From: Auriscalpium vulgare
Lineage: Eukaryota > Basidiomycota > Agaricomycetes > Russulales > Auriscalpiaceae
Direction of reading: 5' to 3'
NCBI GenBank assembly: GCA_019915015.1
Contig: JAHBBC010000043.1
Coordinates: 124,001 to 188,000 of the forward strand
DNA: 64,000 bases
Notes under the pieces: model-generated
What the model was told of the DNA's origin: nothing
What the model saw: the letters and a program-made list of their open reading frames with translations, nothing else
Database searches by the model: none
Position numbers and translations under genes: made by a program
Shown here: in pieces, positions 10,031 to 56,200 of the stretch
Numbering within the stretch: position 1 is the stretch's first letter
Layout of the letters: every line of letters starts with the position of its first letter

Positions 10031-10031
10031 G

Positions 10032-16130: not shown

Positions 16131-16156
16131 ATGGGCTAGTCGAATAGTGACAAGCA

Positions 16157-18925: not shown

Positions 18926-19033
18926 AGGTCCGACTAGATCCGAATGGATTTTGCCAAGAACCCTGGCGGCACGCTTATCTGAACTAGGGTAGGTCTGGCG
19001 AGTGCTCTTGCCAAGCTCACATCCATGACAGGG

Positions 19034-20440
19034 TTAGTAGCCACTGTAGCATGGTCTATGACATCCCTTTGACAACTTCAGAAGTAAGTCGTTTCAGGGC
19101 GCCATGTGACATATGAGCAAAGCGTCCATGAGCAATGTCACCGAGACCGCATCTTTAACCGTCGCCTCATGAACCGCAGGTTTAGGCGTAAGCTCCAACC
19201 AATAAAACTGATCGTGCTTTTGGCCAATACCATAGGTTATGCCAGCGCGTTCTATTGTACACACTCCTGTAGAACCACGTAGAAGCACATCAAACTTCTG
19301 GTTCAACAGTGTAGTCACCGATATGTATCGATGAGCGGCTTTAGGTGCAAAAAGCACATTCTTAAGCGTGACCGCAACACGCTTCCCATCCACATCTGTC
19401 CACGCATTGACAGTGCCCGTCCCATAGAAGTGCATAGCCTGGGCAGTACTATCACCAACGGCAATATGTCCAGGTTTTTCTAGGGCGTGTACTGGGCAAA
19501 GTCTGTACGTGTATGTGTAATATGGTGAGAGCAACCACTGTCAAGCATCCAGCGATTCTTATCAGGCGAGAGGTACCAGGCAACAGCGACTTCATTGGAG
19601 GACGAGGCCTCAACAATTAGAGCATTTACAGAGGGTTTACTACTACCTCCGCCGCCGCCACTACTGTCCCCTCCCTTCTTCTTGTCGCCAGCTTCATCAG
19701 CCTGTTTCTTGCGACAATTGGCCTCCCAGTGACCCTTCTTGTGACAGTACTTGCACTTGCCCTTCTCCACCTTCTGCTTTCCTTTGGCTTTGGCAGCCGC
19801 AGAATTAACAGTGGCAGCGATGGTGGAGTCTGCCTTTATGCTAGCCTCTTTGCCAAGGATGCGAGTAGTGATCTCAGCAGGAGTGGCAGTTTTAAGGTCA
19901 CTGAAGGAATCAAGGGTAAGATCCCTAAATGCCTTGTAGGAATCTGGGAGGGCCTTGAGGAGGAAATACGCGTGTGGATGGGTGTAACAGTTATGCCATT
20001 CTTCTTGAGATTCTCATACTGCTGATCAAAGTCATTGATCTGAGGTCCAAGAGGTTTGGTATCGATGAGACGGGTGGAAAGGTAGAGGTCAAATTGGGTG
20101 AAGATGGTGCGAGTGCCGGGTTTGGAATAGGATGTTTTGAGAAATTTCCAGGCATCAGAAGAGTGGTCATCGTTGCCCACTTTGTTCTTCAAGGCTGGTG
20201 CCAGGGATGCTTTAATGTATCCAAGCGCCACATCATCTTCTTCATCCCATACTGCCTCTGCCTCCACCTCAGTTGCAGTAGGATTGTCTGGATCTGCAGC
20301 TTGGGAGATGGCTTGGAGCCACTGGTGTACCTCCAGAGCTTCTTGACTTTAAGAAAGGCCATCATATCATCTTGCCAAAGGGCATAGTTGCTGTTTCCAG
20401 CTAGGATGGTAAATCCTTTGGGAAGTAATTCTCCAGACAT
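19034..20440 (-). pseudogene. Copia Gag, protease and integrase N-terminus, frameshifted
   Basis: Gag starts at 20440 with MSGELLPKGFTILAGNSNYA. The frame changes near 20320, again near 19985, and resumes as a long frame through the zinc knuckle CKYCHKKGHWEANC and the protease active site WMLDSGCSHHIT. It then meets TAG after FAQYTP near 19490; the homologous frame continues one nt out of register with EKPGHIAVGDS. A further break lies at about 19100-19034, between the protease/HMSHGALKRL part and the integrase zinc finger. At least four breaks are therefore needed to read Gag-Pro, more than the single programmed shift some copia-like elements use. Confidence 0.8.
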
Positions 20441-21120
20441 GTGAAGAGCGAATGATCTGGGTTTGAGGAGCAGTCAGACCCAGATTCTTTAAGAAGTTCA
20501 AGACGACGTCAACCCTATGTGCTGTATCTCTAAGCCAGACCCTAAGGTCCTGTCCTGCCCATGTCCATGTGCGCATATACAGTACAATTACAGTACTTGT
20601 ATGCAAATTTGTGGTTAGGATGAAACGAGAATGCACCAAGGTACACCTCCGGATCCTAATTAAAGCCTAGATGGTTGGGCTCCACAAATCTAAGTACTTA
20701 TAGTAGCGCACTGCAGTTGTAACAGGTGCTCCTGGGTGGATTGACTACCGCCCTCAGGATTGGGACACCAAAACTGCTTCCCACTTAAGGGACAGACAGC
20801 CAACAGTTCAGTGGACCTATGGTTCCCCCAGGCTTCCCCAGGTTCCCCTAAGCCCGTAGTGGACTCTTCTGGTTCGACACAGTTGTGGTCTACACCAGGG
20901 TAGGTAATTGTACAGTATGCGCACAGAGGGACAGGGCAGAAGGGCTCACGCTGACTTCTGGCATCGCCATGCCTCCGTCATCAGCGCTCGCGTAACCCCA
21001 AAGGGGCGAGAGCACAATGGCAGCTCAATGAAGAGCTCCAAGATAGGGCGCGAGTGGAAGATGATGGTAGACTCGCCTTGATAAAAAGCAAAGTAACTTC
21101 TTGTAGCAGGTGTTCAGGCA

Positions 21121-21132
21121 GGGCCCATAACC
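21121..21132 (-). other. Copia primer binding site, internal initiator tRNA type
   Basis: The plus strand reads GGGCCCATAACC, identical to the anticodon arm of eukaryotic initiator tRNA-Met; the minus strand is therefore complementary to it and abuts the 5' LTR with no spacer. This is the half-tRNA priming arrangement known from Drosophila copia, not a 3'-CCA primer. Confidence 0.8.
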
Positions 21133-21616
21133 TGATGAAACACAACTTAGAGAGACGTTAGTCTATACTCAGTCTGTGATGTGAAAAGACTGTATTGCAG
21201 TACCTTAGAGAGACGTTAGTCTATACTACAAGTGAGTTAGTAAAGAGAAGACTCCTAAGTATGCATAGGAATGCTCACCTCAGTCTGTGATGTGAAAAGA
21301 CTGAGGTATCTGAGCGAAGAAAGGAGCCCTTTTATACTACTTGGGGCTCTGCATATCAACCAATCAGAAATTGTGTAGTAAGCATAAAGCATATGTGTAA
21401 GACATAATGTGTAAGAATCAGTCAGCTTGCACAGCATCAGTAAGTACATCAGTCATCCTAGGAGATAGGAGTTAAGACCTGAGTAAGCGTATAGCAATCC
21501 TGTACAGTAGCTATTCTAGACTATTCTACAATGTTCCATGATCAAACAAGTCCAGATCGTTCTAGATCATTCCATAGTATTTGTCATGAGACTAGCGTCA
21601 TCACCAAATTCCAACA
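21133..21616 (-). repeat. Copia 5' LTR
   Basis: 484 bp, the partner of 15637-16120, with the same TG...CA ends and two differences. Confidence 0.93.
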
Positions 21617-33343: not shown

Positions 33344-35859
33344 CTTGAGATATTAGCCTGCTGGCGCGTATAGGGTAGTATGTCGTGAGGGACGAGCGAG
33401 AGTGAAGAGACAGAAGCAGACTGTGCGTGAATGGTCTGGCTATGATGTCTATGTGGAACACGCCAGCGTGCGGGAGAAGGGATGAGGGGAAAGTAGAGGA
33501 GACGAGGACCAGTCGTAGAGAGCAGTCCCCATTTCGCGTTATAAAAGGGCAAGAACAACGCAAGACAACAAGGCGCGAGCCGAGCGTCTTTATTGTGTTT
33601 GCAGCCCGTATCGCGATCGCGGCCTTTGAGGCTACTGGTCAAAGAACATGGCAGAAAGGCCACGTGGCCCGCCACTTCGCATACTTAGCCGGACCCAAGT
33701 TCTGCCCTTCCCCGTGAGCAAAAGGCGACCAGTATGCGAGCACATCCTTACCGGCGCGCGTGGTGGCTTCGAAGAGGAACGGGAGAACCGTGGCCCCCGG
33801 CAGCGGCTGGGATGGCCCTGGCTTATGTCAGCGAGACGGCCTTCAGAGCGACCTTGTCCAGCGTCGCGAAGGCGTCCAAAGTTGTAGGCTCTTGTGGATC
33901 CCCCTTCACGTCGTGACAGGCACTTTTCGCATGTGGCGCTTGCCCAGGGACACTGATCTGATGGCAATTTTCCGAAGCGCTGGACTGTCCGTCGCACAGG
34001 TCCTTAGCTCTCTTATTGTCCTTGTAAGGTGCTGTTACGCGCATGACGCTACGAGCTTTTTGTTGTTCTCACTTCTCCGGGTACCGGCTGTCATGTGCAC
34101 TCGGAGTATAAGCCGAGACGCGCGAGCTGGCGACGCACAACATCGATGCGTCTCCGAGAATAATAGAGGCAAAGCCGGTTCCGGGGCGCGGGCCGACCGC
34201 TCGTTCATCTCTCATGAGCTTTGCCCCGTATAGCGCGAGCAGGCGAGGGACTTCCTCACGGCCACCCGCACTGCGAAGAGGAGAAGGTACCATGGAGTAT
34301 GCAGGGCAGCAGATTCCGCAGGTCGGACGGGACGCTGTATCGCTGCATCGAACCGTGGCCACCGCGTGAGCGAGTGGCGCGTCCCCGGCCTCCTTGCATC
34401 CATATCCAGCGAGCCCACGTCGTAGTCGAAAGCAAGCAAGGATCACCGACATCTATCACCGACAAGCAAAGAAAGCAACGTTAACGACGAAATTCCCGAT
34501 CAATCGATCAAAGAACTGAGAAGACACATGTGCGTTCTGTTCTCGCGGTCCAGCGCGCCCAGTTGCGGCGGTGTCCACGGGGAAGCCGCAGGCGCCGTCG
34601 CGTCCCGTATTGAAGGCGTGGCGCACAGCCTGTTGCTGTTGCGTTCATCTTGACTCTTAACGCACATGAGCAAGGCTAACCTGCGTCAAGTCCAAAGACG
34701 CGGTCAGCCGAGAGATACCGAAATAAGAAGGAACTCGTACCATCGACGAGCAGCTTGCATTGGATGAGCGCCGCCGTGCTCGAGTCTCAGCCGCGCCGCA
34801 TCTTTCACCGTTGCGCGCGTGCCCAGAACGTTGAGCAGGTTCGCCGGAGTGCAGCAGTGCTATACGCTCGGCCTGCATGATGCTCGAGATCGAATAGCAG
34901 TTGCCCGCCCTCTGCGTCGTTAGACAGTCAGTGAGCGGCAGATTATGTGAAGGGTGGCGCACGTACAGGGAGGGAAACAGAGATGGCGCTCTATCGGCCC
35001 GCAGTTAAAGGTATGAGGATGGACAGGTCCTGCAGGACACACATCAGCATCTTTCTCTGCGCGTGAATGGCAACAGGAGAAGACGTACGGGCTAGCTGGC
35101 TCTGCCAGAACATGGGACGCGAGCGGGTCGCACCACTAGGTGCGGAGCGCGCGGGCGGGGTACATGCGTGGCGGGCGTGGGTTGAGGAAGACGGCGACGC
35201 GGTGGAGATGCCTTCAGATGAAGTCAGCGGGCGTAGTCCATCGGATCCTGCCTCCTCGCGCACGAAGACAGATTCGTGAGACTGAAACGTGCAGGCCGAT
35301 ATACGAAAATCTCTTGTATGTACAGAGACACGCCACACGGACAAGGAGAAACAGCTCTTTGTGTTGGAGAGACGGGTATCCGTCTGGCTTGGAGGGACTG
35401 GTCGTGTCTGATAGAGCACCTGCTGCGACATATGACTGAGTATGCACCTCGGGTGAATGAGCGACTCATAGAGCGCCATCTACAGATAATGGTCAAGTAA
35501 GTGGACAGATCTCGTGGGATGTCACATACCAAAAGCGTTGCGCATACGAGCCATTGGCCTAGCGCGACACACGTCTTCGCTGGTACGCAACGACGGGCTC
35601 CACCGGCAGTCGAGCAGGACGAACCGTTTCGCCGGCCAACTCGGCCATCGGGCGCTCCACTTGCTTTGACGGTGCAGAATGGCGACGAGAGGGATGGAAG
35701 CAAAGCAATGCAATCGTAGATATGTGACCGACTCTTCGAAGATGAGACCGTCTGTTGACGGTCTTTGACGGCAGAAGGGGAGGCTTGTTGGACTGCATGC
35801 CAAAGTTGAGGGCATGCTACACAGAACCCTTTTGGAACCCTTAATACGCAGTCGCATCT
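33344..35859. other. Intergenic, no supported gene
   Basis: About 2.5 kb with scattered short frames on both strands, none with a motif I can name. The first part is the upstream region of the helical protein. The far end borders the inverted duplication. Confidence 0.4.
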
Positions 35860-35867
35860 GACTACAG

Positions 35868-36080
35868 CATGGAAAACTCACCAAGCAGCCAAAGCGTCGA
35901 GGCCGTGCCCGCAATCGTAAGGGTCTGCCGTACCGTCAGCGCTGCACCACTTGAGAGCTATATTACTTTCAGGCATAGATTGGATAGCAGCAATCGACAG
36001 TGGCACCGTTCTTCGATCCCAATATTGGCTTTCCAGGTGCCAGGCGTGTCACCGACGTGGAGTGCCGTCTGCGGTTGAGG
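35868..36080 (-). pseudogene. PDI-like relic (protein disulfide isomerase fragment)
   Basis: The minus strand reads LKWCSADGTADPYDCGHGLD and continues ALAAW up to a GTGAGT donor; PDI family proteins have FPTLKWF...GTAEPY-GGRDLDALAAF at this place. It is the counterpart of the longer relic at 57211-57800. The first thioredoxin active site is not present in this arm, because the segment corresponding to about 56970-57600 is missing. Confidence 0.6.
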
Positions 36081-36294
36081 GTCTTCTGTGGGCGGTTGAC
36101 GGTTGGGGGTGGCGATTACATGTTTGGCCACGTGGCTCATCTGGCGCGCTATCGATGGCCTTCGCAACTTGTCCTCTCCCGCCACATCAAGTGTTGGAAA
36201 ATGCTACCAAAGTCCCTCCTGTCCAAAGTTCGGAAGCCCGTCAGGCTGCGCAGCCAAACTGTTTCATCAGAGGGTGAGACACCAGCAGTCGAGG

Positions 36295-39200
36295 ATGTCC
36301 CGGAAGGCTCATATCAGAACAGATCAGCATGACATCAATAGCAAGATGTCTCCAGTTGGCAGCCCGAGACAAGCTCGCGAGGACTATACATTGTCCACGC
36401 ATCTTGCTGTATTGAAGGAGATCGGAGAGATCGCGGCAAATGTGCCATATATCAAGGGTGTAGCGGGAGTTCTCTTGAGGGTTGCTGAGATAAGGGAGGT
36501 GAGTAGCTCTGAGTCTCATCAACAAGAGCTATATCTCATGTAGGGATACACAGCGATCTGTCATTTATGATGACAGTTGCGATGAAATAATGGAAGACCT
36601 TGCTAGAGCTGCTGAGATGGTGGCTCATGCATTTCAGTGGTGTACCCCAGGCTCCAATGCAAACCTGCTTGATGCAAACACAATGCCTGCTGATCTGATT
36701 GATCTTCTTCAATCCCTCAGACAGTGAGTGCTATTTGTTGCTGTTAGCTAGCCTGATAATCACAAGGCTGCTTTGGCATTTCAGAGAATTAGACAAGATC
36801 AAAGACCACATGATCTTATTAGAGTCTTATAATCAATCCAGAATAACCAGAATTCAAAAGACTTTGTTTCACTCAGCCATGTTGGATAAAACACAGAGGT
36901 GTAGTAGAACTCTCAAAGAAGTTCTTGAAGCTACAAAAGTAAAGTTCTTCAAATAGCTATTGTTATAGGATCCTAACAATCTCTGCAGAGTGCTCTGATT
37001 ATGCATATCGGTTTTAATTCCAATGCAGCATCAAGTCAAGTAAGTCATATGATATATGTGTTTTCTGGGACTAAATAGTGGACCTGTGCAGACTAGTCAT
37101 CTAGGTTTGAGGTGTTTATCACACACAATGCCCACCTTGTGTCTTGCTAATACTCTTATGATAGACCAAATATGTCACTTCCCCCATTACCTCAAGGTTT
37201 CTGTGGGAGAACTTTTGAGGTTGAAAAAATTGTGTCTATAATCATCTCAGCATCACCTTCAGCAAAAATAACAATAACAGGCCCTGGCGGTGTAGGCAAA
37301 ACTGCAGTAGCTCTGGGTGTTCTACATCATGCAGATATCAAGAAGAAATTCAAGGAGAATATATATTTCGTGTCTTGTGAATCATGCACTACAGTCAGTC
37401 TGCTACTGGCAAAATTGGCTCAGATATTTGATGTTATATGTGAAAATGAACAACTTGTGGAATCACATGTTCTTTCTTATCTTAACAAAGGCTCTGATTG
37501 CTTAATCACCTTAGACAACTTTGAAACACTCTGGGAACAAAATGCATCACAAAGAAGTCAAACTGAGTCGTTATTGAAAAAGATGGTGGAGGTGCCTGGT
37601 ATAACTCTACTAGTGACTATAAGAGGAACAGAAAGACCTTCTTGTGTGAATTGGACAGAGCCAACATTGCCACCTCTTGAGCCAGTCAGCATTCAAGTAT
37701 CAATAGAACTATTCAAGAATATTTCTGGAAAATGGGACAAGTATGCAGATCAATTATTAAAGGCTATAGATGGTCTACCATTGGCAGTGACATTGATAGC
37801 CTACCTTGCTCAATCTACAAATTGTCATGATCTGTGGTGTCTCTGGCAAAAGAATCAGACTGGGTTACTTGAGCGTGATAAAACCCATCGTCTAACAAGT
37901 GTAGATGTCTCTATACATTTATCAATCAGTGGCAGTAGAATAAACAATTCACCAGACTCTTTGAGATTACTAAGCATGGTGTGCATGTTGCCTCAGGGGC
38001 TTGACATGTCTAAGAACATGAAGCTTCAAAAGTACTTCCCCAATATGCCAGATTTTGATATTTTGATGATACCACTAAAGACCAGTGGAGTAGTCTATTC
38101 AACACCCCAAAACTTTTTAAATGTCCATTCACTGATACGTGCTTATTGTCAGAGTTACCATCCATGTTCACAAGAAGACAAGGTGTCATTGGCTGAGTAC
38201 TATATCAAATTGGCAACAACAAGTCATGTAGGGCAAGACAGCATATTTCATGAGCAAGTTTCCCAACTGGAAAACATGTATGTCTTATTTTATGACTTGC
38301 TCCAAGGGACACCTTGGCCTTCGTTGATAAGCGCTGCATTGGAATTTTCATTCTTTGCCTGTTGTGTGGGCTCATTCTCAGATCAACTGCTTGTTTTGGT
38401 TGAGGAGCACTGCAATGCTATTTCAAATAAGGAACATATCAAGTTGTATACAGTATGGGGCAGATGTTGCAGCCGTACAGATCAGTTTGAGATGGGAGAA
38501 AGGATGTATGCAAAGGCAAAAGACTTGGCTGAATTATATGAAGACTACAGCAGTATAGGAAATATAATAGTACGTATGGCAAAACTAAAAACTAGTAGAG
38601 AGAACTGCAAAGACGCAATTGAGATGTATCAAGAGGCACTCAAGATGCACAAGCTTGCCAATGACACTGAGGGTCAAGCTGATGACTATCTTTGTATTGG
38701 ACGAGTCTGTTATGAAGTATATGACCTATCTCAAGCCAAACAATATTGCAATAAAGCATTGGAAATGTACAAGATTTTGTCCAATACTGATGGACAAAGC
38801 TATGCATGGAAGCTTCTTGGGGATTTATCATTTTGTGAAAAACAAAATGATAAAGCATATATCTGTTTTGAAGAGGCTTTGAAGTTGGGAAGACACAATC
38901 ATAATTTTTATCTAGAAGGAAGAACATTAGAAAGTATTGGCATGATTTTCTCTTCACAGGGGAGGTTTGCTGAGGCTGAGGAGAGTCTGCAGACAGCCTT
39001 CAAGATACAAATGAGGATTAAAGATAGCATTGGACAAGGATGTGCACTTGATGCATTAGGGAAAATGTATCTAGCACAAAACAAGCTTGATGATGCAAAA
39101 CAGTGCTTTGAAAGAGCATTAGAATGTCACAAATTTAGAGATGATAAAACATGTCAAGCATATTCCATCCAATCATTGGCTAGTGTTGTAGCATGCCAAA

Positions 39201-39730
39201 GAGACAACAACAGTGCTGTTGCTTTATACAAAAAGGCATATGATATGCATGGGAGTGTTGAAGACTTGGATGGTCAAGGATCTGATCTTGAAAGACTGGC
39301 AGCATTTTATTATTCCCTCAAAGAATATGAGGATGCTAAACAATACTGGCAACAAGCCCTAAAGATTGCACAAAATACAAATAATAAATTTGAAGAATCA
39401 CATGTTCTCTATCTGCTGGGAAAAACATGTTACAATATGAGGCAATACACTGAGTCTAGACAATACTGGGAGCTTTCTCTGCAAGAGAGTTCACATGTTA
39501 AATTTGCAAGGTGTGAAGGCTCTGTCTTAGAATGTTTAGCAGATCTAGAAATCATTTATGACAATTCAGTGCAAGCAATTGAATTATATGAAAGAGCACG
39601 TCAAGCATTTCAAACAGCAGACTTTTCCACAGGTCAAGAAAGGGTGTTAGCAAGTTTGGCTGGGATACATTTAGATCAAGGTCAAACTGAAAAGGCCAAA
39701 GAATACTATAAACTTTTGAGCATTGTATAA
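36295..39730 (+). CDS. NLR1: N-terminal helical domain - NB-ARC - TPR protein
   Basis: Predicted exons 36295-36498, 36554-36723, 36785-36938, 36989-37039, 37097-37104 (8 nt) and 37165-39730, total 1050 residues; introns are 50-61 bp. The N-terminal roughly 195 residues are all helical, in the style of fungal HeLo/MLKL-like four-helix domains. NB-ARC: P-loop GPGGVGKTAVAL, Walker B CLITLDNFETLW, sensor LLVTIRGTERP and GLPL-type DGLPLAVTLIA. From about residue 625, ten or so 40-residue TPR units with A-x-YCN/CFE-ALE patterns follow. Fungal NLRs act in allorecognition and defence, with repeats as sensor and the N-terminus as cell-death effector; this role is by family only. The start at 36295 is the first Met inside the block shared with NLR2. 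The gene is distinctly A+T-rich compared with its neighbours. Confidence 0.85.
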
Positions 39731-40241
39731 GATAGTAATACAGTGGTTTGGTACTTGCATATTGTAAGGCAGACAGCCATCACCATAGGGCAATGGTGTA
39801 AGGGATGTAAATGTAGGTGGGCATGTATTGCAGTGGAGTAGCAGACTGAAGGTTGCTACACAAGTGTAAGAGGGTGTGAGGACAGGACACACTAGCAGCA
39901 CAGGGCATCATTGATGTGACCGGGATTTCCGTCATGTGCTTAGTCCCTAGACACCAGTAGGTTGCAAAAGATTTTTTGTTCAATATGTACACTCTAGTAT
40001 TCAAATTGTCGTCCCTCTTGTGGACATCTGTACTACAATCATTATCCATTTTTCTTCTTTCTTTTTGTTTGTGTCTTGTTGCCATCTGCGTCCTCCTCCA
40101 CAACATATCAAGCAAGTCAGGCAACTCAGGTGGACTCACCACAAGATCAAATCAGCAGACACTGATACGCCTGGTTCTACGCTGAGCGGGGATTTCACCT
40201 CAATTTTCAAACTTTTGTCAAGTCCATATGCAGTGTAACAC
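39731..40241. other. NLR1 3' flank
   Basis: No gene seen. It includes the expected terminator/polyadenylation region of NLR1. Confidence 0.4.
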
Positions 40242-41163
40242 TGATGGGCGTCCAACCGGTAGTGAGGCGGATATATATTGATATCCACTCCTCAGAGCGC
40301 AGTAATGGACGTATCGATTTGAGGGAGTCAGTCAGGGTCCCGAGACTACGCACAGCAAATCCTGCTCGGTGCACGAGTGGGACACAGCGACTTGGACTTG
40401 GATCGGAGGGCACAAGAGGCTAGGGGAGAGGACAATAGCGCGCGGGCTAGACACAACACGGATCACCGAAATGATGTAGTGCTGGAGACGCGACGGGCGA
40501 GCTCCCAAGAATGTGTCACGGAAGCTAGGAATGTCGGAGGGGATGCGAGGACCATTTCAAAAGTTGAAGGGGAGTTACGCAGCGGTGGCAATGGTTGGGG
40601 GAATATTTGAAGATGAGAGGGTCGAAGTACGAGGCGGTGGTGAAGGAACAGAGGGGCGTATATAAGCCTGATCTCTGCGTTGAAGGTGCGGGTGTCGAAG
40701 GAGAGATTGGTGAGACGTAGGGAGATTTCGAAAGGCGAGAGGGGATTTGTTGAGGGTCGTGGTATTGATATTCGTACTGATATTGCGGCGTGGTATTGGG
40801 TCGAAGTTCGTGCATCTAAGAGCTTAGAGCAACAGTTTGTGGTGAAGTCAGACCACTTCAGAGGCTCTTTTGAGATCCTGAGTACGAGGGGGAATAGGAA
40901 CTTGTTATTTTGTCTTCGAGCGACTCAGAACTATTTGTACGACAATCGAGTCAGAATCCGTATCATACGGACGTTGACATAGGAAGACAAATACGATCTA
41001 AACACGGAAGATGTGGGTCAGATATCACAGGGAGTACAAGGTGGACACGGGGGAGTGAGTATACGAGGGATGTGGCAAGAGAGGATCGTTGAATTAAGGT
41101 ATAGTTTAGGTTTAGTTCCGACTTACGATCGCCGCTAGGGGGCGAAGTGCAAAACGCGCGGCT
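40242..41163 (+). repeat. R1, LTR-like repeat
   Basis: It begins TGATGGGCGTCC and has a TATA box (GTATATAAGCC near 40659) followed by a start-site-like stretch. It is nearly identical to R3 (51471-52395, inverted), with partial or diverged relatives at 41783-42339 and 42890-43760. Size, TG start and internal promoter fit a solo LTR, but neither the CA end nor a target duplication could be fixed. Short frames inside it are shared only because the DNA is repeated. Confidence 0.6.
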
Positions 41164-41782
41164 AGCGCTAGATCGTAAGGCGCTATCAGTGTATCGTAAT
41201 GTCGAGTGAGGTATCCGATGTATTCCGAGTGTAAATTGAAGGGAGGGACGTACAACGGGCGGTCTTGGCTCGCTGTGTAGCGCTCCTGCCTATCTCGGAA
41301 GGCTGTGGATTAATATAGGCGGGACCGTATCGTAGATCAAGATGTGGGGGATATTGAGGAATCGGGGGACACAGAAGGGAAGCTTGATTGACAGCGGCGC
41401 ATCACGGCGGGGAAGGTTGTGGCGTGTGGATTTGAGTTAGATAGTCACTGTGTGACTGCTGTGCGGGGCTGTAGGATTGTGGCGTGTGGCTTGGGGCGCC
41501 TGGTGGGGTGTCAAGGGTGCTGCGCAATGTCGGGACACTCTGGGAACGTGGTGGGAGGCGATTGCGATATGTCTAGAGCTGAGGGCAACAAGGGGATGTG
41601 TGTGCGAGACATCACAACGTGTGCACAGAGTGATGGGGACTGGATATGAACATCTTGATGGCTTGGGAAGTGCGTAAACATGACTTGGGGACTTGTGCGG
41701 TCATCTGGCAAAGCTTGGAGGGTAGAGAATTGATGGAAACGTCAAGGGGTATGGGCCTGTGTTGCTACAAGTGGGCTAGCGT
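41164..41782. other. Spacer between R1 and R2
   Basis: No gene seen; simple GT-rich sequence on the plus strand. Confidence 0.35.
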
Positions 41783-42339
41783 TGATGGGCGTCCAACTGG
41801 TAGTGAGGCGGATATATACTGATATCCAATCCTCAGAGCGCAGTAGTGGACGTATCGATTTGAGGGAGTACAGTCAGGGTCCCGAGACTACGCACGGCAA
41901 ATCCTGCTCGGTGTACAAGTGGGACACGGTGACTAGGACTTGGATCGGAGGACGCGAGAGGCTGGGGGAGAGGACAATAGTGTGCGGGCTAGACACGGCA
42001 CGGATCACCGAAATGATGCAGTGCTGGAGACGCGACGGGCGAGCTCCCAAGAATGTGTCACGGAAGCTAGGAATGTCGGAGGGGACACCAGGACTATTTT
42101 GAAAGTCGAAGGGGAATTACGCAGCGGTGGCAATGGTCAGGGGAATATATCGAGGACGAGAGGGATGAAGTATGAGGCGGTGACAAAGGAACAGAGGGGC
42201 GTATATAAGCCTGATCTCTGCGTTGAAGGTGCGGGGTGTCGAGGGAGAGAGTGGTGAGGCGTAGGGAGATTTTGAAGGGCAAGAGGGGATTTGTTGAGGG
42301 TCGTGGTATTGATATTCGTATTGATATTGCGGCGTGGTG
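41783..42339 (+). repeat. R2, 3'-truncated member of the R repeat family
   Basis: In direct orientation to R1 and roughly 90 percent similar until GGCGTGGT at 42339, where R1 goes on with another 800 bp and R2 breaks into unrelated sequence. The following frame (MNPGEGPGNVDRNGG...) is Pro/Gly/Arg-rich and of unknown meaning. Confidence 0.65.
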
Positions 42340-43760: not shown

Positions 43761-44500
43761 GTGGATAAAGATCATGTGTCGCAAGTCGAGGTGGGTTGTA
43801 ACGAGCATATGTAGCGAGAGAGAGCTCTCATGGAGATCAAGAACGATGGATACCAAACAAACAATCAGCGCTGTCGCTATGATGTGATACACAGAAGGAT
43901 ATAGAACGAACGATGTTGTGGAGACACGCCTCAGCGGTACAAGGCGCGCCAGACGTATAACCGTGAGCCGAAGTTACAGCGAGTGGCGGACGATGTCCCG
44001 AAGTGGCTTGGAAGGTAGCCATGGCTTCGGGCTTGGTTCGCCTCGGCTCGGAAAGGTCGGGACGATAGAGGGGATCAATCGGGAACACTATAAGTGAGGG
44101 GGAGAACCGGACAGGGAAGTATCGGGTGGCAGCCGGTCGTCTTGGAGATATGCTCACGGGACGTTTCACTACACTGATCTTGGTCTGGCAGCGACTTTGT
44201 GGCGTGTCTGCTGCTGATGGGCCGAAAGGTCTCGACCGAACCACGTGCGGGCGCCTCGGGGTGACTGGAAACGAGGCCGAAGCGCTGGAAAGTTCGGAGC
44301 CGAAGTCACCTGACTTCAGAACTTTCCAAAGTGGCTGTGCCGAAACGGCGGAAACGGCGGTCCGGAGACCAAAGTCACGTGACTTTGGTTCAACATGAAA
44401 AACCGAAAAGTTGCGGTGGAATCCCCGCTTGACGGGGAATCAGGTGTATCATCGGGTGTAGGCCCAAGGTCCCCAAAAGTGTCTATACAAGAGCTCAAAC
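43761..44500. other. Spacer with imperfect hairpins
   Basis: No gene is supported. Short inverted repeats such as CCGAAGTCACCTGACTTCAG (44300-44319) and CCAAAGTCACGTGACTTTGG (44371-44390) stand next to a TATA-like TCTATATACTG near 44504, so this may be the promoter of the fragment that follows. Confidence 0.4.
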
Positions 44501-45220: not shown

Positions 45221-47025
45221 CACCAGTCCATGTAGTCTCATTAAAAATAAGACCGGTAGTTACCGGTCAGTTCATTTCAAGAATAGACCGGTAACATTAT
45301 CCATTTAAATGAATCGACGTACGACGACGCATCAGTCATTAAAAATGCTTCGGGGTGTAAAAATGCTTCGATGCTATTGGCTACGGAAAAATCGGATAAA
45401 ATCGGCAAAAATGGTGAAAAAATTCAGTCGGCGCTTGTTCCCACGGGCACGGACCAAAATGAACCATTATAAATGGCTACCGGTAAAACAAATTGGCACC
45501 TATAGGGTTCAAAAAAATGGGGGAAAACCTGGATAAATTGGCATATATTAGGGAGCATCAAATGCCACCCGATTTCGGCTCCCACGCGCCAAAATGTTCC
45601 CACGGTCCCAAAAAATGCCATTTTTTATCATTCACACTGGTATATAACCCTTTCCGTAGGCCCTAGGAAAACCCATTGATGACAATACAGTACGTATATG
45701 AGGTGGAATTACATGTGAGCCATATATACAGACTGTCCTAGCCCAGTCCATTGGAATGGGAAGTGGATGGACCCACAAACAAACAGAGTATATCATAAGG
45801 AATATCCTACAGCCATGATCTTGTTTACCTAAGCTACCAAAATTTGCACACAAATAGCTCTCAATACTTTAAGACTTATAGTAGATTTTTCATGACCCAA
45901 GCCCCCCCTCAATTCTTCTCAAACACAATTTCTTTAGTATTTATGCTGTTGAGATAGTATTAATGGACACATTTTGACTACTTTTGTATACATTTGGCAG
46001 GGTCTGACCGCTGTAGATGCCCAGTCACAATGCAGCTAGTCTCTACCTTCATATTACATATTTAACATACCACCCTGGAGAGCTATTAGGCATACTCCAT
46101 TCTTTTGGGCTAAAACATATAAATAATGAATATATGTGTGTTGAATGCAGCCTACCAATGACTTCAAACAATGGTATGTTAAATATGTAATATGAAGGTA
46201 GGATCTAGCTGCATTGTGACTGGGCATCTACAGCGGTCAGACCCTGCCAAATGTATACAAAAGTAGTCAAAATGTGTCCATTAATACTATCTCAACAGCA
46301 TAAATACTAAAGAAATTGTGTTTGAGAAGAATTGAGGGGGGGCTTGGGTCATGAAAAATCTACTATAAGTCTTAAAGTATTGAGAGCTATTTGTGTGCAA
46401 ATTTTGGTAGCTTAGGTAAACAAGATCATGGCTGTAGGATATTCCTTATGATATACTCTGTTTGTTTGTGGGTCCATCCACTTCCCATTCCAATGGACTG
46501 GGCTTAGGACAGTCTGTATATATGGCTCACATGTAATTCCACCTCATATACGTACTGTATTGTCATCAATGGGTTTTCCTAGGGCCTACGGAAAGGGTTA
46601 TATACCAGTGTGAATGATAAAAAATGGCATTTTTTGGGACCGTGGGAACATTTTGGCGCGTGGGAGCCGAAATCGGGTGGCATTTGATGCTCCCTAATAT
46701 ATGCCAATTTATCCAGGTTTTCCCCCATTTTTTTGAACCCTATAGGTGCCAATTTGTTTTACCGGTAGCCATTTATAATGGTTCATTTTGGTCCCGTGCC
46801 CGTGGGAACAAGCGCCGACTGAATTTTTTCACCATTTTTGCCGATTTTATCCGATTTTTCCGTAGCCAATAGCATCGAAGCATTTTTACACCCCGAAGCA
46901 TTTTTAATGACTGATGCGTCGTCGTACGTCGATTCATTTAAATGGATAACGTTACCGGTCTATTCTTGAAATGAACTGACCGGTAACTACCGGTCTTATT
47001 TTTAATGAGACTACATGGACTGGTG
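45221..47025. mobile_element. P1, foldback DNA element with about 850-bp inverted arms
   Basis: Arms 45221-46072 and 46172-47025 are reverse complements with only a few mismatches or indels and are separated by about 100 bp. The termini are CACCAGTCCATGTAGT / ACTACATGGACTGGTG. Just inside lie inverted GACCGGTAGTTACCGGTC motifs. No transposase is present, so it is non-autonomous. It is related to P2 (same ends; shared GCCCCCCCTCAATTCTTCTC near 45903). The flanks GAT...GAT could be a 3-bp duplication. The superfamily is not recognised. Confidence 0.8.
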
Positions 47026-47304
47026 GATTTGATGGGTCGGGATTCTGTTGCGCGTGGTCGGTTCCAACTTTGTCTCCCTTCTGGCCACTTGTTCCTCGTG
47101 TGCCATGCGCGGACTGGTCACCCATCGCCGAGGAAATCCCTATCTTTCTCCTCGTCGCTCGCGACTGGCCATCCTCCCCCCAACTGAAATCTGCGCCTGC
47201 CCTCAGACGTGCATTCCCAGGCAAACCGCGGCGCATCGGGTCGCGACAAGTGCCCGACGGCGTACATAACGCAGGCGGTCGGTGCCTGCGACCCATCGTC
47301 TGTC

Positions 47305-48433
47305 ATGTCGTCCACCTTTGCCCTTGAGTCGCGCGCACTCGCCCTTGTCGGCTTACTCCTCACGCCCCCTGCCATTGACCTGGAGACCGCCCCCGTAGGG
47401 ACCCTGGTCGCGGCTCGTGAAGAGTGGGGTCGCAAGGTTGCCGCCCTCTATGTAAGCCCTCGTGTCATTGTCGCGATCGTCGCTCACGCTGGTGCGGGGT
47501 TGTTCCAGGGCGAAGTCTTTAATACGGCGAAGCCGTCTGTCCTCCGTCTGGTGCAGGCGATTGCGGGCCCTATCTTCGAGATGTTGTTCACCGTGTCCCC
47601 CGAGTCGCGTTGCCTTCGCCGAGTGGGGTGGTATTCTCATCAGCGACATCGCGCCCCCAACGTCCGCTCCACTCGACCCGACATTCGCTGTTCGCCCTAT
47701 TGCTGGCTTCACCTTTCCCAACAATCGCGATCATGCTTGGCAGCTCACCCGCCTTTGCGAGGGTGCGCTGTGGGCAGCGTTCGAGTCGGGTCGCACGTCC
47801 GTCCCTCAGTACCGCCGCAGCCTCGGTGAGCTCTGCCTGGCCGCTCATCCTACTGGTCGCGGCGCGGGTATCGACGCGACCGTGCACGCGGAGTTTATCG
47901 CCGCCATGGAAGCTTGCGCGTCCGTGCTCCAGCGCCTGAATGGCGGGGAAGAAGCCCTCCTGTCCGAAGTCCATCGCCTCTCCTACTCGACCACTGGCGT
48001 ATCCCTTCCCGACCTCCTGCGCACCCCCGCGCACCCCCTCTCCGACACTCTTATCACCCACACTACCGAGACGGTGGCGACCTTGGAATCGGTCTATGCT
48101 ACCATCGCTCAAGTTGCGCGGCCCGACGATCGGAGCGCGCGCGGTTGCTGGGGTCCCTACGTTGACGCCTTTGATTCGGCGGATGGGTCGCTGGAGGCCG
48201 CCGCGGCGGCGTTTCTTCGCGACTCATTGCAGTGGGCCACGATCGACAGTCTCCACGCCCGGACTGCGATAGAGAGCGTGATCCTCGCGTTGAACCTGCC
48301 CACTCAATTGTTGGCCGACATCCACAGCAACCCGACGATGTTCCTGGATGAGATCGTGACGTTTCGCGCTGTTCCGATGGGGTGGCAGAACGTACACCGC
48401 GGTCACCGAGGCGGAGCCGCAAATCGGGGTTGA
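47305..48433 (+). pseudogene. Unrecognised protein gene with one frameshift
   Basis: The first frame from ATG 47305 (MSSTFALESRALALVGLLLT) runs to FTVSPESR at about 47611; the coding-like sequence then continues one nt out of frame with VAFAEWGGILISDIAPP to the stop at 48431-48433. Both halves have strong, G/C-biased codon use and no stops, so this is one gene with a single indel (or a base-calling error). The protein would be about 375 residues, mostly helical, with no motif that I recognise. It lies between foldback elements P1 and P2. Confidence 0.5.
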
Positions 48434-48945
48434 GTCAGCCAGCCGGGGCGCATTCCCCGCAATGACCCTGCCGTACTGTAGAGTTGTTGGGGCGTCGGGG
48501 CGTCGAGAAGCAGAGGGAAAGAAAGAGCCCGCGTTAGTGTAGCCATTTTGCGCCTGCATGTACGTCGTTGAATGCCTCCCAATAGAACTGTCAGAGTTCC
48601 GACCCATTGCCAGCTTCTGCGACGCCCGTGCGCAGAGGTCGCGTGTCTAGGAGGGACGGGCGCCAACGACTTGTGAAGATTCGCTCGCGCCAGGGGCACG
48701 TGATCGCCACGTGGCTTCGGAGCCGCGTGCGTCGTCCCGCAGCGGCCCGGTGTACATCGCGGTATCAAATCAACGATCGCTGATCCGATCGCGGATCGAC
48801 CCGGCATCGTGGGCGCTCGGAGGCAAAACCAGCGCTCTGGCCGGGCCACGCGGCCGGTCGCTCCCACGCACGCGCCATTGTTCGTGCGCTTGTCCTCTTC
48901 CCCTCGCCTCGCTCGCTCACCTTCCCACCGCCACAATTCCCTGCG
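48434..48945. other. Intergenic between two unknown genes
   Basis: No coding signal; contains GGCACGTGATCGCCACGTGG near 48696, an E-box-like inverted pair, as possible promoter sequence. Confidence 0.35.
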
Positions 48946-49187
48946 TTATGGACGCCGCCTCTCGCTGATGCGACCGCCACCCGTGCGATGCTGGACCTCC
49001 AGCTGGGTTTGCTCGATGCCATGGCGAGCGACGCGACCACCGAAGAGCAGCTCGCCTTGCTGCGCCCGCAAGTCCGCCAGCTCCTGGTGCGCCCGTTCCC
49101 TCTCCCTCATTAGCTGACCTGGCCCCCTTTTGTCCTGATTGTCTAGCGCTCCTACTACAACGCCCGGGGGCGCGGTGTGGCGTTCTC
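48946..49187 (+). pseudogene. Unrecognised gene truncated by foldback element P2
   Basis: The frame LDLQLGLLDAMASDATTEEQ and then LALLRPQVRQLL, followed by an intron 49087-49145 (GTGCGC...GTCTAG), continues as RSYYNARGRGVAFS and runs straight into the P2 terminus. The rest of the gene is not found on the far side of P2. Family unknown. Confidence 0.4.
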
Positions 49188-51470
49188 CACCAGTCCCTGT
49201 AGTATAATAAGAAATAAGACCGATGACCATCGGTGTGCTAGTTTCGAGGATTGACCGATAAGGATATCATTTTAAATGGGTCGGCATAGGAGATATTTAA
49301 AATGATTCCGACGGTAAAAATGTTGTGATCCTATTGGCTACGGAAAAATCGGCTAAAATCTGATAAATGTTGAAAAAATTCAGTCCGCGTCGGTTCCCAC
49401 GGATACGGGACGGAAATAAATCATTTTAAATGATTACCAGTACTACGAATAGCTGCCCGTAGGGCTTGGAAAAATAGGGAAACATACGGAGAAATCGGAA
49501 TATATTTGGGGGCGTCGGTGTCTAGCCGATATCTATTCCCACGCGTCAACATATTCCCACGGTCCCAAGAAATGCTATTTTTAATCATTTGCGCTGGTAT
49601 ATAATCCTTTCTGTAGGCCCTGGGAAATCCCATTGACAACCATACAGTGCATGTATGATGTAGACTTACATGTAGTCCATATATACAAACTGCTTGAAGC
49701 CCATTCTATTCAAATGCGAGCTGGACGGAACCACAAACCAGGAAAGTATCTGATACAGAATATCCTGCAGGCATGATCTTCTTTACCTAAGCAACCAAAC
49801 TTTGTACACAGATAGCTCTCAACACTTCAAGACTTATAGTATGTTTTCCGTGACCCAAGCCCCCCCTCAATTCTTCTCAAACACAATTTCTTTAGTATCT
49901 ATGCTATTGAAATAACATTGATATACATATTTCGACTCCTTATGAATACATTTGGCATGTTCTGACTGCCATAGATGCACAGTGAAAATAACATCACTGT
50001 CTACCACTACTTTTCCCATTTACCATCTTCTCCTTTGAAGCCTCAGGTAAGCTGCATTCAATATATATATTCAATATCTATATGTTTTGGCCCAAAAGAA
50101 TGGAGTGTGCTTAATAGCTCCCCAAGACTTGGTCAATAAAATTCCCAAATATTTCAGAGTACTCACAGACCATGCCCCACCCACTGCTATAAGTATTGTA
50201 TTCCTTCAAGGAGTTGGTAGATAGTACTGTACTTCTGCTCTGATACAGCCTATACTACTGTCCTTGTCCGATGCATGTGCAATAGCAAATGGTCCTTTCT
50301 TCTTCCACTGAATCTTGACTTGTGATATCAGCTTAGTTGAGCATAAGCCTATGATAACTGAGAATAAGCCCATTCATATATACATGTACAAGCCTGGGAC
50401 CATTCTATATCTTAGAGGGTATGTCAGAGTGGAAGTACAGTACCATCTACCAAATCTTTGTATGATTCCAATACTTATAGCAGTAGGTTGGACATGGTAT
50501 GAGAGTGCTCCGAAATATTTGGGGATTATATTGACCGAATCCTGGAAAGCAATAGTAATAGGCACACTGCATTCTTTTGGGCCAAAATATATAAATAATG
50601 AATATATGTGCAGTCTACCCATGCTTCAGCATGGTAAATATAGAAAGTAATGATAGAGACTAGTTGCACTTTGACTGGGCATCTACAGCAGTCAGACCAT
50701 GCCAAATGTATTCAAAAGTAGTCCAGATATGTATATCAATACTATTTCAACAGCGTAAATACTAAATAAATTGTGTTTGAGAAGAATTGAGGGGGGGCTT
50801 GGGTCACGGAAAACATACTATAAGTCTTGAAGTGTTGAGAGCTATCTGTGTACAAAGTTTGGTTGCTTAGGTAAAGAAGATCATGCCTGCAGGATATTCT
50901 GTATCAGATACTTTCCTGGTTTGTGGTTCTGTCCAGCTCACATTTGCATAAAATGGGCTTCAAGCAGTTTTTATATGGGGACTACATGTAAGTCTACATC
51001 ATACATGCACTGTATGGTTGTCAATGGGTTTTCCCAGGGCCTACAGAAAGGATTATATACCAGCGCAAATGATTAAAAATAGCATTTCTTGGGACCGTGG
51101 GAATATGTTGACGCGTGGGAATAGATATCGGCTAGACACCGACGCCCCCAAATATATTCCGATTTCTCCGTATGTTTCCCTATTTTTCCAAGCCCTACGG
51201 GCAGCTATTCGTAGTACTGGTAATCATTTAAAATGATTTATTTCCGTCCCGTACCTGTGGGAACTGACGCGGGCTGAATTTTTTCAACATTTTATCAGAT
51301 TTTAGCCGATTTTTCCGTAGCCAATAGGATCACAACATTTTTACCGTTGGAATCATTTTAAATATCTCCTACGCCGACCCATTTAAAATGATCTCCTTAT
51401 CGGTCAATCCTCGAAACTAGCACACCGATGGTCATCGGTGTTATTTCTTATTATACTACAGGGACTGGTG
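49188..51470. mobile_element. P2, older foldback DNA element, almost wholly palindromic
   Basis: The two halves (centre about 50329) are reverse complements with visible divergence, perhaps 85 percent alike, over at least 900 bp from each end. The termini CACCAGTCCCTGTAGTATAA match P1 in the first 15 bases bar one. The conserved internal word GCCCCCCCTCAATTCTTCTC occurs in each arm (49858 and, reversed, near 50787). No transposase is seen. The two sides join different sequences: a truncated gene on the left and truncated R3 on the right. Confidence 0.75.
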
Positions 51471-52395
51471 TAGCCGCGCATTTTGCACTTCACCCCCTAG
51501 CGGCGATCGTAAGTCGAAACTAAACCTAAACTATACCTTAATTCAACGATCCTCTCTTGCCACATCCCTCGTATACTCACTCCCCCGTGTCCACCTTGTA
51601 CTCCCTGTGATATCTGACCCACATCTTCCGTGTTTTAGATCGTATTTGGCTCCTATGTCAACGTCCGTACGATACGGATTCTGACTCGATTGTCGTACAA
51701 ATAGTTCTGAGTTGCTCGAAGACGAAATAACAAGTTACTATTCCCCCTCGTACTCAGGATCTCAAAAGAGCCTCTGAAGTGGTCTGACTTCACCACAAAC
51801 CGTTGCTCTAAGCTCTTAGACGCACGAACTTCGACCCAATACCATGCCACAATATCAATACGAATATCAATACCACGACCCTCAACAAATCCCCTCTCGC
51901 CTTTCGAAATCTCCCTACGTCTCACCAATCTCTCCTTCGAAACCCCGCACCTTCAACGCAGAGATCAGGCTTATATACGCCCCTCTGTTCCTTCGCCACC
52001 GCCTCGTACTTCCTCCCTCTCGTCGTCGAAATATTCCCCCGACCATTGCCACCACTGCGTAACTCCCCTTCACCTTTCAAAATAGTCCTTGCGTCCCCTC
52101 CGACATTCCTAGCTTCCGTGACACATTCTTGGGAGCTCGCCCGTCGTGTCTCCAGCACTACATCATTTCGGTGATCCGTGTTGTGTCTAGCCCGCACGCT
52201 ATTGTCCTCTCCCCTAGCCTCTCGTGCCCTCCGATCCAAGTCCAAGTCACCATGTCCCACTTGTTCACCGAGCAGGATTTGCCGTGCGTAGTCTTGGGAC
52301 CCTGACTGACTCCCTCAAATCGATACGTCCATTACTGCGCTCTGAGGAGTGGATATCAATATATATCTGCCTCACTACCGGTTGGACGCCCATCA
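51471..52395 (-). repeat. R3, LTR-like repeat in the right arm
   Basis: Inverted and close to identical to R1 over its length, with the same TATA box. Its inner end meets the P2 terminus exactly (GCGCGGCTA/CACCAGTCC). Confidence 0.7.
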
Positions 52396-53283
52396 GCGGG
52401 AAACCCCACCAGCGGTGGGGATCTTGCGTTTTGCTCTATTCTTTACCATCTGTAACCTTGTAGTTAGTAATTCGAATAAATAGATTTGCTCACTATAAAG
52501 GGTGTTCAAAAAAGTGTAATGTTGATGTTTTGCTGTCTTACGGTTCACACGAAGGAATGCAACCAGTGTGCTACGATTGTAGACGATGAATGTGTACAGG
52601 ATGTGTTGGATGTAAGTTGCCACCTCCCTGCCCAAGGGAGGCAGCCTAAGTACTACAACCCAAACAGGTGTCAACACCCTGTTTAGGTAACTGTGCGAGC
52701 TCGTGGCCGCTACAGTTCCCTGACATGCTAGCTCACAGCGTCAGGGCCCGCGCTAGACGACCGCTAGTCGTCAGCGCCGCATCCATCTTTCCCGTACTCC
52801 CTTACACCGCACCAGTACGTGTGCGCATCCCGGACGCACCCGTGTCACATCAACGCTCGCCTTCCTTGCTCTTGCTTGACACTTGAATACTCCTCGAGCT
52901 CGGCGGGAGTCGCCCTCTCCTCACAAGTTCTTATTGACTTTGTATGTTGTTTTTCGCTTACGCGGTTGGGACACGCGCCTCGTGGATTCCACAAGGCCCT
53001 ACCCACCGTTGGATCCTCTCCGACCTTCTCTCGCTATCCTCTGCTTGGAGTCTGAGCAGTGACCTTACCTTGTTCTGCAGGTGCATTGCTGTTCATACCT
53101 ACTATGAGTATTTGAAAGTTGGACAATGATACATGATACCAACTAAGCATACAAGACTTGGAGGAACTAGTCAGTGTCAGAATCCCCATTACAGTTCTCT
53201 ACTACACATTTCTATATCTTGAAAGGGCATGAGAATGTACCAACATGACAATATAAATATTCTGTTTAAGGCACAAAGGCATA
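52396..53283. other. Spacer between R3 and NLR2
   Basis: No gene is supported. Several short plus-strand frames lack motifs. It contains the NLR2 3' flank. Confidence 0.35.
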
Positions 53284-56200
53284 TTATCTGGCCTTTTTAG
53301 TCTGATTTTGATCTGAGTGCAATTGAGACAAACTTTCTAATACTCTCTCTCGATCATTCAAGCAGTCTGCCTTTGTGAATGCCTGGCTTGCTCTTTCAAA
53401 CAATTCAACCGCATATGTTGAATTGTAAGTTCTAATTCTGCTAAGCATTCCAACACAGAGCCTTCACATAGTGAGAACTCAATCTCTGAACTTTTTTTCA
53501 ATGCAATCTTCCAGTATTCTCCGGCCTGAGAGTATTGCCTCAAATTGTAAAATGCTCTTCCCAAAAGATAGAGAATATGAGCTTCTGCAACTGAATTGTT
53601 TTGAGTGTGGAATATCTCAAGTGCTCTTTGCCAGTACTGTTGAGCATCATCATACTGTTCTTCAGAATAAGACAAATCTGCCAGTCTGTTGAGAACAAAT
53701 CCTTGCCCATCCAAGTTTCCAACACCTTCATGCATATCAAATGCCTTTCTATATAAAGCAACAGCGCCGTTATTATCTCCTTGATATGCTGTGACAGCAG
53801 CTAATGAATGAATGGAACATGCTTGAAATATTATATGATCTGTTTGTTTGTAACACTGTAATGCTCTCTCATAGCACTGTTTGGCATCTTCAAGTCTGTT
53901 TTGCTTTAGATACATTTCTCCTAATGTATCAAATGCAACCCCCTGCCCAATGCTGTCTTTGATTCTCGTTTGAATGTTCAAAGCTCTCTGTAAATTATCC
54001 TCAGCCTCAGTCAACCTTCCCTCTAATAAGTGGATCTTCCCAATCTCCTCCAAAGCTCGTCCTTCTATGTAAAAGTTATGATTGTGTCGGCCTAATTGTA
54101 AGGCTTCAAGATAACATTTGTAGGCTTTGTTCACCATGTTGTCACTAAAATATATATCTCCAAGAACCTTCCAGGCAGAACTTTGGCTATTACTATCTGA
54201 CATGCTCTGAAACACGTTCAGTGCTTTATAACAATATTTTTTAGCTTTTAATATATCATTTTCTTGATAAAAGGCTTGTCCAATGTACAGATAGTCATTG
54301 GCTTGACCCTCAGTGTTGTTAGCAAGCTTGTGCATGTCGAGAGCCTCTTTGTACATCTCAATTGCACCTTTCCAGTTTTCACTGCCATTTCTTAGACCTG
54401 CAATTCCTATTAATATATCGCCTATGCTGCTGTAGTCTTCATATAATTCAGCCAAGTCTTTTGCCTTTGCATACATTCTTTCTCCCATCTCAAACTGATA
54501 TGTACGGCTGCAACATCTGCCCCATACTGTATACAACTTGATATGTTCCTTATTTGAAATAGCATTGCAGTGCTCCTCAATCAAAACAAGCAGTTGATCT
54601 GAGAATGAGCCCACACAACAGGCAAAGAATGAAAATTCCAATGCAGCGCTTATCAACGAAGGCCAAGGTGTCCCTTGGAGCAAGTCATAAAATAAGACAT
54701 ACATGTTTTCCAGTTGGGAAACTTGCTCATGAAATATGCTGTCTTGCCCTACATGACTTGTTGTTGCCAATTTGATATAGTACTCAGCCAATGACACCTT
54801 GTCTTCTTGTGAACATGGATGGTAACTCTGACAATAAGCACGTATCAGTGAATGGACATTTAAAAAGTTTTGGGGTGTTGAATAGACTACTCCACTGGTC
54901 TTTAGTGGTATCATCAAAATATCAAAATCTGGCATATTGGGGAAGTACTTTTGAAGCTTCATGTTCTTAGACATGTCAAGCCCCTGAGGCAACATGCACA
55001 CCATGCTTAGTAATCTCAAAGAGTCTGGTGAATTGTTTATTCTACTGCCACTGATTGATAAATGTATAGAGACATCTACACTTGTTAGACGATGGGTTTT
55101 ATCACGCTCAAGTAACCCAGTCTGATTCTTTTGCCAGAGACACCACAGATCATGACAATTTGTAGATTGAGCAAGGTAGGCTATCAATGTCACTGCCAAT
55201 GGTAGACCATCTATAGCCTTTAATAATTGATCTGCATACTTGTCCCATTTTCCAGAAATATTCTTGAATAGTTCTATTGATACTTGAATGCTGACTGGCT
55301 CAAGAGGTGGCAATGTTGGCTCTGTCCAATTCACACAAGAAGGTCTTTCTGTTCCTCTTATAGTCACTAGTAGAGTTATACCAGGCACCTCCACCATCTT
55401 TTTCAATAACGACTCAGTTTGACTTCTTTGTGATGCATTTTGTTCCCAGAGTGTTTCAAAGTTGTCTAAGGTGATTAAGCAATCAGAGCCTTTGTTAAGA
55501 TAAGAAAGAACATGTGATTCCACAAGTTGTTCATTTTCACATATAACATCAAATATCTGAGCCAATTTTGCCAGTAGCAGACTGACTGTAGTGCATGATT
55601 CACAAGACACGAAATATATATTCTCCTTGAATTTCTTCTTGATATCTGCATGATGTAGAACACCCAGAGCTACTGCAGTTTTGCCTACACCGCCAGGGCC
55701 TGTTATTGTTATTTTTGCTGAAGGTGATGCTGAGATGATTATAGACACAATTTTTTCAACCTCAAAAGTTCTCCCACAGAAACCTTGAGGTAATGGGGGA
55801 AGTGACATATTTGGTCTATCATAAGAGTATTAGCAAGACACAAGGTGGGCATTGTGTGTGATAAACACCTCAAACCTAGATGACTAGTCTGCACAGGTCC
55901 ACTATTTAGTCCCAGAAAACACATATATCATATGACTTACTTGACTTGATGCTGCATTGGAATTAAAACCGATATGCATAATCAGAGCACTCTGCAGAGA
56001 TTGTTAGGATCCTATAACAATAGCTATTTGAAGAACTTTACTTTTGTAGCTTCAAGAACTTCTTTGAGAGTTCTACTACACCTCTGTGTTTTATCCAACA
56101 TGGCTGAGTGAAACAAAGTCTTTTGAATTCTGGTTATTCTGGATTGATTATAAGACTCTAATAAGATCATGTGGTCTTTGATCTTGTCTAATTCTCTGAA

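Follow-up and report, generated by a model that had tools for sequence, protein, structure and literature searches.

Probable gene conversion of the NB half, with the TPR half left out, in an inverted pair of fungal NLR genes

Two inverted NLR genes, NLR1 and NLR2, share a near-identical block that extends from intron 1 to approximately the first TPR, and this block was probably copied between them by non-allelic gene conversion, the TPR halves, which are the predicted sensors, being left out. The identity of the two genes changes in a step at the block edges, synonymous and intronic sites take part in the step, the TPR halves are old, and the same step is present in two further inverted pairs of the genome. 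The window, i.e. the whole stretch of DNA analysed, comprised 64,000 nucleotides (C43:124001-188000), and the genome searched consisted of 51.6 Mb in 96 contigs, referred to by C and a number. The coordinates of the features are presented in Table 1.

The gene pair, its block and its surroundings

The NLR1 model was built with GT-AG introns, the splice pattern being taken from the annotated Auriscalpium vulgare homologue P0001. The Pfam matches of NLR1 and NLR2 were 26.9 and 26.8 bits with NB-ARC (cut-off 23.5) and 31.5 and 31.2 bits with NACHT (cut-off 26.7), respectively, and TPR matches above the Pfam cut-offs were obtained with both. In their NTPase domain and C-terminal TPR-type repeats, the two proteins agree with the NB-ARC/TPR class of fungal NLRs (STAND). 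Their nearest named relatives were Auriscalpium vulgare (Russulales) proteins. P0001 was predicted to fold into a TPR solenoid of regular shape, preceded by an NB-ARC-like part and, with low confidence, by a bundle of helices (mean pLDDT 77.9, pTM 0.53); five helices were predicted with low to middling confidence in residues 40-200. The top Foldseek match was the TPR-carrying STAND protein 6mfv, and Apaf-1 was listed among the matches as well, together with NRC resistosomes of plants. No effector-type Pfam match was detected at the N-terminus of P0001, P0002 and P0030, and the fold search barely covered this part. The nine TPR units of NLR1 were on average 19% alike (maximum 28%), which places NLR1 outside the Podospora type of high-internal-conservation (HIC) repeats with its units more than 85% alike within a gene. 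In NLR2, the frame of the last TPR was shifted by a 7-nt deletion (39554-39560 in NLR1 coordinates) and the end of the repeat was lost.

Table 1. Positions of the NLR genes, their parts and the spacer repeats in the window.
Feature	Position	Strand	Remarks
NLR1	36201-39733	+	seven exons, 1069 aa
NLR1 exons	36201-36273, 36323-36498, 36554-36723, 36785-36938, 36989-37039, 37092-37111, 37165 to stop before 39733	+	
NLR2, inverted partner of NLR1	53358-56779	-	exon 1 ATG at about 56779
Older diverged NLR1 flank including exon 1	36100-36282	+	78.5% to NLR2, 95.1% to C17 pair
Homogenised block, NLR1	36283-38553	+	exons 2-6, NB half, first TPR; 4/2271 differences
Homogenised block, NLR2	54427-56697	-	counterpart of NLR1 36283-38553
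Unhomogenised TPR half, NLR1 (TPR 2 onward)	38554-39733	+	by DNA identity, dS and dN
Unhomogenised TPR half, NLR2	53358-54426	-	by DNA identity, dS and dN
Foldback (palindromic) repeat in spacer	45221-47025	.	genome-dispersed; outside the NLR system
2.16-kb repeat between the foldback repeats	47030-49191	.	dispersed, 42 genome matches (pieces and window counted)
Second, related foldback repeat in spacer	49185-51473	.	genome-dispersed

A two-change-point fit of the NLR1/NLR2 alignment resulted in 4 differing sites of 2271 (0.18%) within 36283-38553 and 342 of 1308 (26.1%) outside. A sharp step was obtained rather than a smooth divergence profile, and the identity cliff reported in the preliminary description, with edges at 36285-38555, was recovered at nearly the same positions. 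The longest identical run was 1660 bp, compared with a top value of 143 in 10,000 permutations. As described earlier, there were no indels through the exons and introns of the block. The block had been called identical, which should read near-identical due to the differences at 36738 (intron 3), 38399, 38480 and 38503. Of these, the one at 38399 is the first to alter the protein (V/I); it is located just ahead of TPR 1 of the model, in agreement with the place near the TPR start described earlier.

The left edge of the block lies inside intron 1 (36274-36322), and the right edge corresponds to codon 677 approximately, near the border of TPR 1 and TPR 2 as drawn from the P0001 model. NLR1 does not begin with the block: exon 1 (36201-36273) was found upstream of it in the diverged flank. 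The similarity of this flank, 78.5%, was close to the 80% given before and confirms that the block is embedded in older divergence. In the TPR half, the genes were 73.0% alike in DNA (1053 sites of 38581-39640) and 56.5% in protein, compared with the roughly 60% given earlier. The corresponding dS and dN were 0.77 and 0.27.

The spacer between the genes was rich in repeats. Both foldback elements are nearly all palindrome and related to each other, and 110 matching pieces were found in the genome. The palindromes were considered as part of the NLR system and rejected, as they are dispersed through the genome. A conserved middle gene at 47030-49191, which is also found between the C17 NLRs at 87%, was ruled out likewise, the 42 matches referring to a dispersed element. 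With much of the spacer consisting of such repeats, the proposed two-gene cassette in a hairpin locus is not supported as a unit. Direct and inverted copies of another spacer repeat, 91-95% alike, adjoin the NLR tails (40241-41164, 41780-42338, 51471-52396). A 1.2-kb stretch upstream of NLR1 (34561-35780) may be a shared upstream module, as five other NLR frames, located on C17 and C38, are preceded at a distance of 1.7-2.8 kb by sequences 70-79% similar to it. When a coding gene was sought by comparing 34561-36095 with C17, no codon rhythm was detected and the long frames were not common in position. Further to the left, 1-15020 contains a repeat family whose members occur in both orientations and share roughly 67-92% identity, and an LTR-type element, its 484-bp ends being 99.6% alike, occupies 15637-21616.

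Approximately 68 kb of C43, from window position 15634 through the end of the contig, which lies past position 64000, recurs reversed on C40:39059-111854 with a similarity of 99.7-99.9%. The left end of this homology coincides with the outer edge of the LTR-type element. The C40 copy is either a left-over haplotype or a recent segmental duplication. It is colinear with the window, the spacer not being flipped, and carries both NLR genes with the identical set of four block differences; in its copy of NLR2 one further A is missing within a run. The RPB2-type family was found in three places of the genome only, each time single. A 5.3-kb insertion in C40 (C40:78049-83380), absent from the window (site 44131-44138), has an 8-bp target repeat and short inverted ends. 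It looks like a DNA transposon, which we take to be hAT-like.

The same step in further inverted pairs

The genome search revealed a second inverted NLR pair on C17, with P1 starting from about 455105 (+) and P2 from about 498920 (-). Outside the TPR part, 26 of 8671 sites differed (99.7% alike) and the longest identical run was 4755 bp, whereas within the TPR part the differences amounted to 269 of 1087 (75% alike). In the third inverted pair, Ca/Cb on C38, whose proteins are 33% like NLR1, 13 differences in 2803 sites were determined within the block and 271 in 1278 outside; the sequence upstream of this block is older, with alignable patches of about 70-75%. The cliff is thus broader than first described. 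The right edges of the three blocks map to NLR1 ORF residues 467, 476 and 454 (window, C17 and C38, respectively), i.e. within 22 codons. The left edges are unlike: the window block begins in intron 1, that of C17 over 8 kb ahead of the gene, and that of C38 upstream of the frame carrying the N-terminal domain. The partners are arranged tail-to-tail in the window and on C17, at least 13 kb apart, and head-to-head on C38, about 17 kb apart. The gap columns in the TPR part numbered 7 in NLR1/NLR2, 3 in P1/P2 and about 21 in the C38 pair, and an indel of a whole repeat was absent within all three pairs of this one strain.

P2 is interrupted in its NB part by a 2.34-kb insertion. As the bases around it are identical to those of P1, the insertion probably postdates the last copying. 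Two identical insertions of this kind are present on the same C17 arm, one inside P2 and the other in the flank (C17:494658-496997 and C17:499727-502066). Together with the 7-nt deletion of NLR2, one partner is damaged in two of the three pairs, an argument against both partners being under strong selection at present.

As controls, eight non-neighbouring NLR paralogue pairs, formed by eight genes of three subfamilies, were compared, and none of them had a step at the TPR border. Their 300-bp bins were 76-92% alike and the last bin 69-84%. One control, C17:403027/552479, fits less well: it was 81-88% alike over about the first 900 bp and 76-78% thereafter, the drop being located well ahead of the TPR border. 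The protein identities of the N half and the TPR part were 98-100 and 56-68% in the inverted pairs versus 74-85 and 65-78% in the controls; between window and C17 proteins they were 77 and 57-61%. For a direct tandem NLR pair on C10, the 481 columns compared in the NB part gave 76% identity. A block was absent from two more diverged inverted neighbour pairs: one on C30 (40% alike), the DNA of which matched over no more than 157 columns, and C38:35494/60278 (55% over 580 aa). These comparisons covered about 20 of the approximately 45 NLR gene places by hand count, and two more through a 501-bp piece; further NLR pairs, direct or inverted, may be present in this genome.

By the method of Nei-Gojobori, the dS values of the TPR halves within the pairs were 0.77 (window), 0.66 (C17) and 0.57 (C38), compared with 0.012, 0 and 0.026, respectively, in the NB halves. 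Between the window and C17 loci, the NB-half dS was 0.56-0.58. The TPR dS within the pairs being similar to this value, the partners are about as old as the split of the two loci, and the NB half alone was renewed. Since the synonymous sites and introns step as well, the cliff reflects the age of copying and not protein constraint. An identity tract that is sharply bounded by older divergence, synonymous and intron sites included, is the mark of a gene-conversion pair and was observed here.

Comparison with A. vulgare was in agreement with this. The NB-half protein identities within the pairs were 100% (P1/P2), 99.1% (Ca/Cb) and 98.5% (NLR1/NLR2, where the final codons lie past the edge). In the TPR half, P1 was 71.8% identical to an A. 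vulgare relative and 61.6% to P2; Ca was 73.3% identical to its own A. vulgare relative and 68.2% to Cb, and Cb was 69.2% identical to A. vulgare. A P1+P2 clade was rejected in the TPR tree (p-AU 0.0098), with unstarred support (77/80) for the grouping of P1 with A. vulgare. The AU test left NLR1+NLR2 (p 0.49) and Ca+Cb (p 0.56) unrejected, and the outgroup branches were long. In these sequence trees, a conflict between the block and the rest of the gene was shown for the P1/P2 pair only. A trace of exchange between the two loci, window and C17, may be seen in the NLR1 flank and exons 1-2, which were 94-95% like C17 compared with 77.5% in exons 3-6.

The TPR halves had been thought free to diversify. 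Their dN/dS was 0.35 in each of the three pairs, which indicates that they are under constraint, and no positive selection across the whole TPR half was found by dN/dS in these pairs. At the positions that we take to face the TPR groove, the ratio was 0.83, 0.67 and 0.37, compared with 0.30, 0.32 and 0.30 elsewhere, and no pair exceeded 1 even there. The observed replacement level was reached by 180, 1194 and 58 of 10,000 random position sets, resulting in significance in two pairs only. The changes thus appear to lean to the predicted groove positions. In a fungal TPR domain, polymorphic sites were located on the concave surface, and positive selection on such repeats is reported for Podospora in the available part of the same work (Dyrka and others, PMC4986451).

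Interpretation of the identity step

The age contrast in three pairs agrees with the earlier proposal that the signalling half was recently copied across an older inverted pair and the sensor half excluded. The copying is probably gene conversion between inverted copies, possibly accompanied by crossovers inverting the spacer; conversion fits because the tract ignores exon/intron borders and synonymous sites. It would also recur, as the residual divergence varies among the pairs (0.18%, 0-0.3% and 0.46%). The right edge may be fixed due to TPR halves too unlike for strand exchange, or due to selection against tracts that merge the sensors; the two are not exclusive and fit the data equally. 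Selection, or a very old border, is likely behind the steady right edge, because it lies near the same protein place in subfamilies only 33% alike.

The inverted arrangement had been suggested to help the copying. All three close pairs are inverted and the direct tandem on C10 is not homogenised where read, which suggests that inverted order aids homogenisation, the numbers being small; two more diverged inverted pairs were not homogenised either.

From each pair the cell would obtain a matched helical-bundle/NB-ARC chassis bearing two different sensors, and the two proteins could then signal alike and possibly co-assemble. In its widest form, which we regard as doubtful, the inverted pairs would be a recurrent two-sensor device: recombination of the arms would keep the chassis identical for mixed assemblies, and occasional flips of the locus would place either sensor behind either promoter. 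If the pattern is true in strains, it is the chassis and not the sensor that must match between partners. It would then be a natural map of where an NLR divides into a 'shared engine' and a 'private sensor', and it makes testable whether neighbouring fungal NLRs act as heteromers.

Crossovers may have acted along with conversions, the inverted arms flipping the spacer, the sensor halves trading promoters and the block serving as an invertible joint. This is compatible with conversion, and the inverted order of all three pairs and the length of the near-identical blocks (2.3-2.8 kb, and a 4.8-kb identical run), which is sufficient for recombination, are in accordance with it; however, the sole second copy of the locus, on C40, is colinear with the window, and such flipping is considered unlikely.

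An improbable alternative is a recent inverted duplication of a whole gene, after which one copy received the TPR half of another family member. The C17 arm, 99.7% alike over 8671 sites with the TPR half alone differing, is what duplication and import predict. However, the sequence upstream of the block is old in the window and C38, so those pairs are old, and import would have had to occur three times, always near the same border. Nor was a TPR donor found: beyond the four subfamily genes and the C40 copies, the best NLR1 match among the matches listed was 33% identical.

Gene conversion is also favoured over an assembly or polishing artefact, which is very unlikely. The assembly does contain a near-duplicate, the 68 kb of C40, and an assembly duplication had been named beforehand as a possible source of the block. 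However, each copy of the block is anchored to its left and right by flanks that differ from those of the other copy, the same four differences were found on two contigs, three loci are concerned, and polishing is not expected to remove about 20% divergence over a 2.3-kb tract. A scenario without copying, in which purifying selection maintains the signalling half and the sensors are relaxed, would account for the better conservation of the NB half between loci (81.6% versus about 72-73% for TPR), but it is already refuted by the near-identical synonymous sites and introns of the blocks and has hardly any probability left; the absence of a step at the TPR border in all eight control pairs is also against it.

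Comparison with known systems

In the plant RPP8 NLRs, duplicates exchange sequence as here, and selection was proposed to keep two tandem copies different; in contrast to our pairs, they are direct repeats with LRR sensors, and no fixed step at the sensor border is described in the available part of that account (PMC6771003). Head-to-head NLR pairs of plants and Sordariales likewise consist of two neighbouring inverted genes. The plant pairs are, as far as the available text goes, highly diverged with sensor and helper roles, whereas here one chassis is common to the partners and two of the three pairs are tail-to-tail (PMC12258605). The plant-type head-to-head order with a shared promoter was found neither in the window and C17 pairs, which are tail-to-tail, nor in the C38 pair with about 17 kb between its genes. 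The head-to-head order was reported for 13 of the 225 NLR clusters with two genes in Sordariales, and only 16 of 272 clusters were made up of paralogous copies (PMC12258605).

The basidiomycete MLKL-like (BaMLKL) NLRs resemble the present proteins in having, according to the available text, a helical-bundle N-terminus, predicted in our case, followed by an NB domain; the N-terminus here has no Pfam match, and membership is at most putative (PMC9815663). Partial-gene conversion, with selection thought to keep another part apart, is described also for the ruminant CEACAM1 paralogues. As that source has it in its available part, the extracellular ligand-binding part evolves in concert there and the cytoplasmic signalling part is excluded, the roles being reversed compared with our pairs (PMC7042247).

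Among the titles and abstract openings listed from the open-licence literature on gene conversion, inverted gene pairs and homogenised halves in fungal NLRs, the present pattern was not found. A close fungal parallel is het-d/het-e/HNWD of Podospora anserina, where one part of the gene is homogenised among paralogues and the recognition residues are on the repeat surface (available parts of PMC1805685 and PMC4986451). Podospora had been cited as a precedent, but the relation is the reverse: its repeats evolve in concert and vary in number, whereas here the NB half is homogenised and the TPR repeats are not (available part of PMC1805685). Fungal NLRs are known for homogenised repeats, and in the present genome it is the opposite half that is homogenised; this was observed in three pairs, which belong to two distant subfamilies, and with almost the same border.
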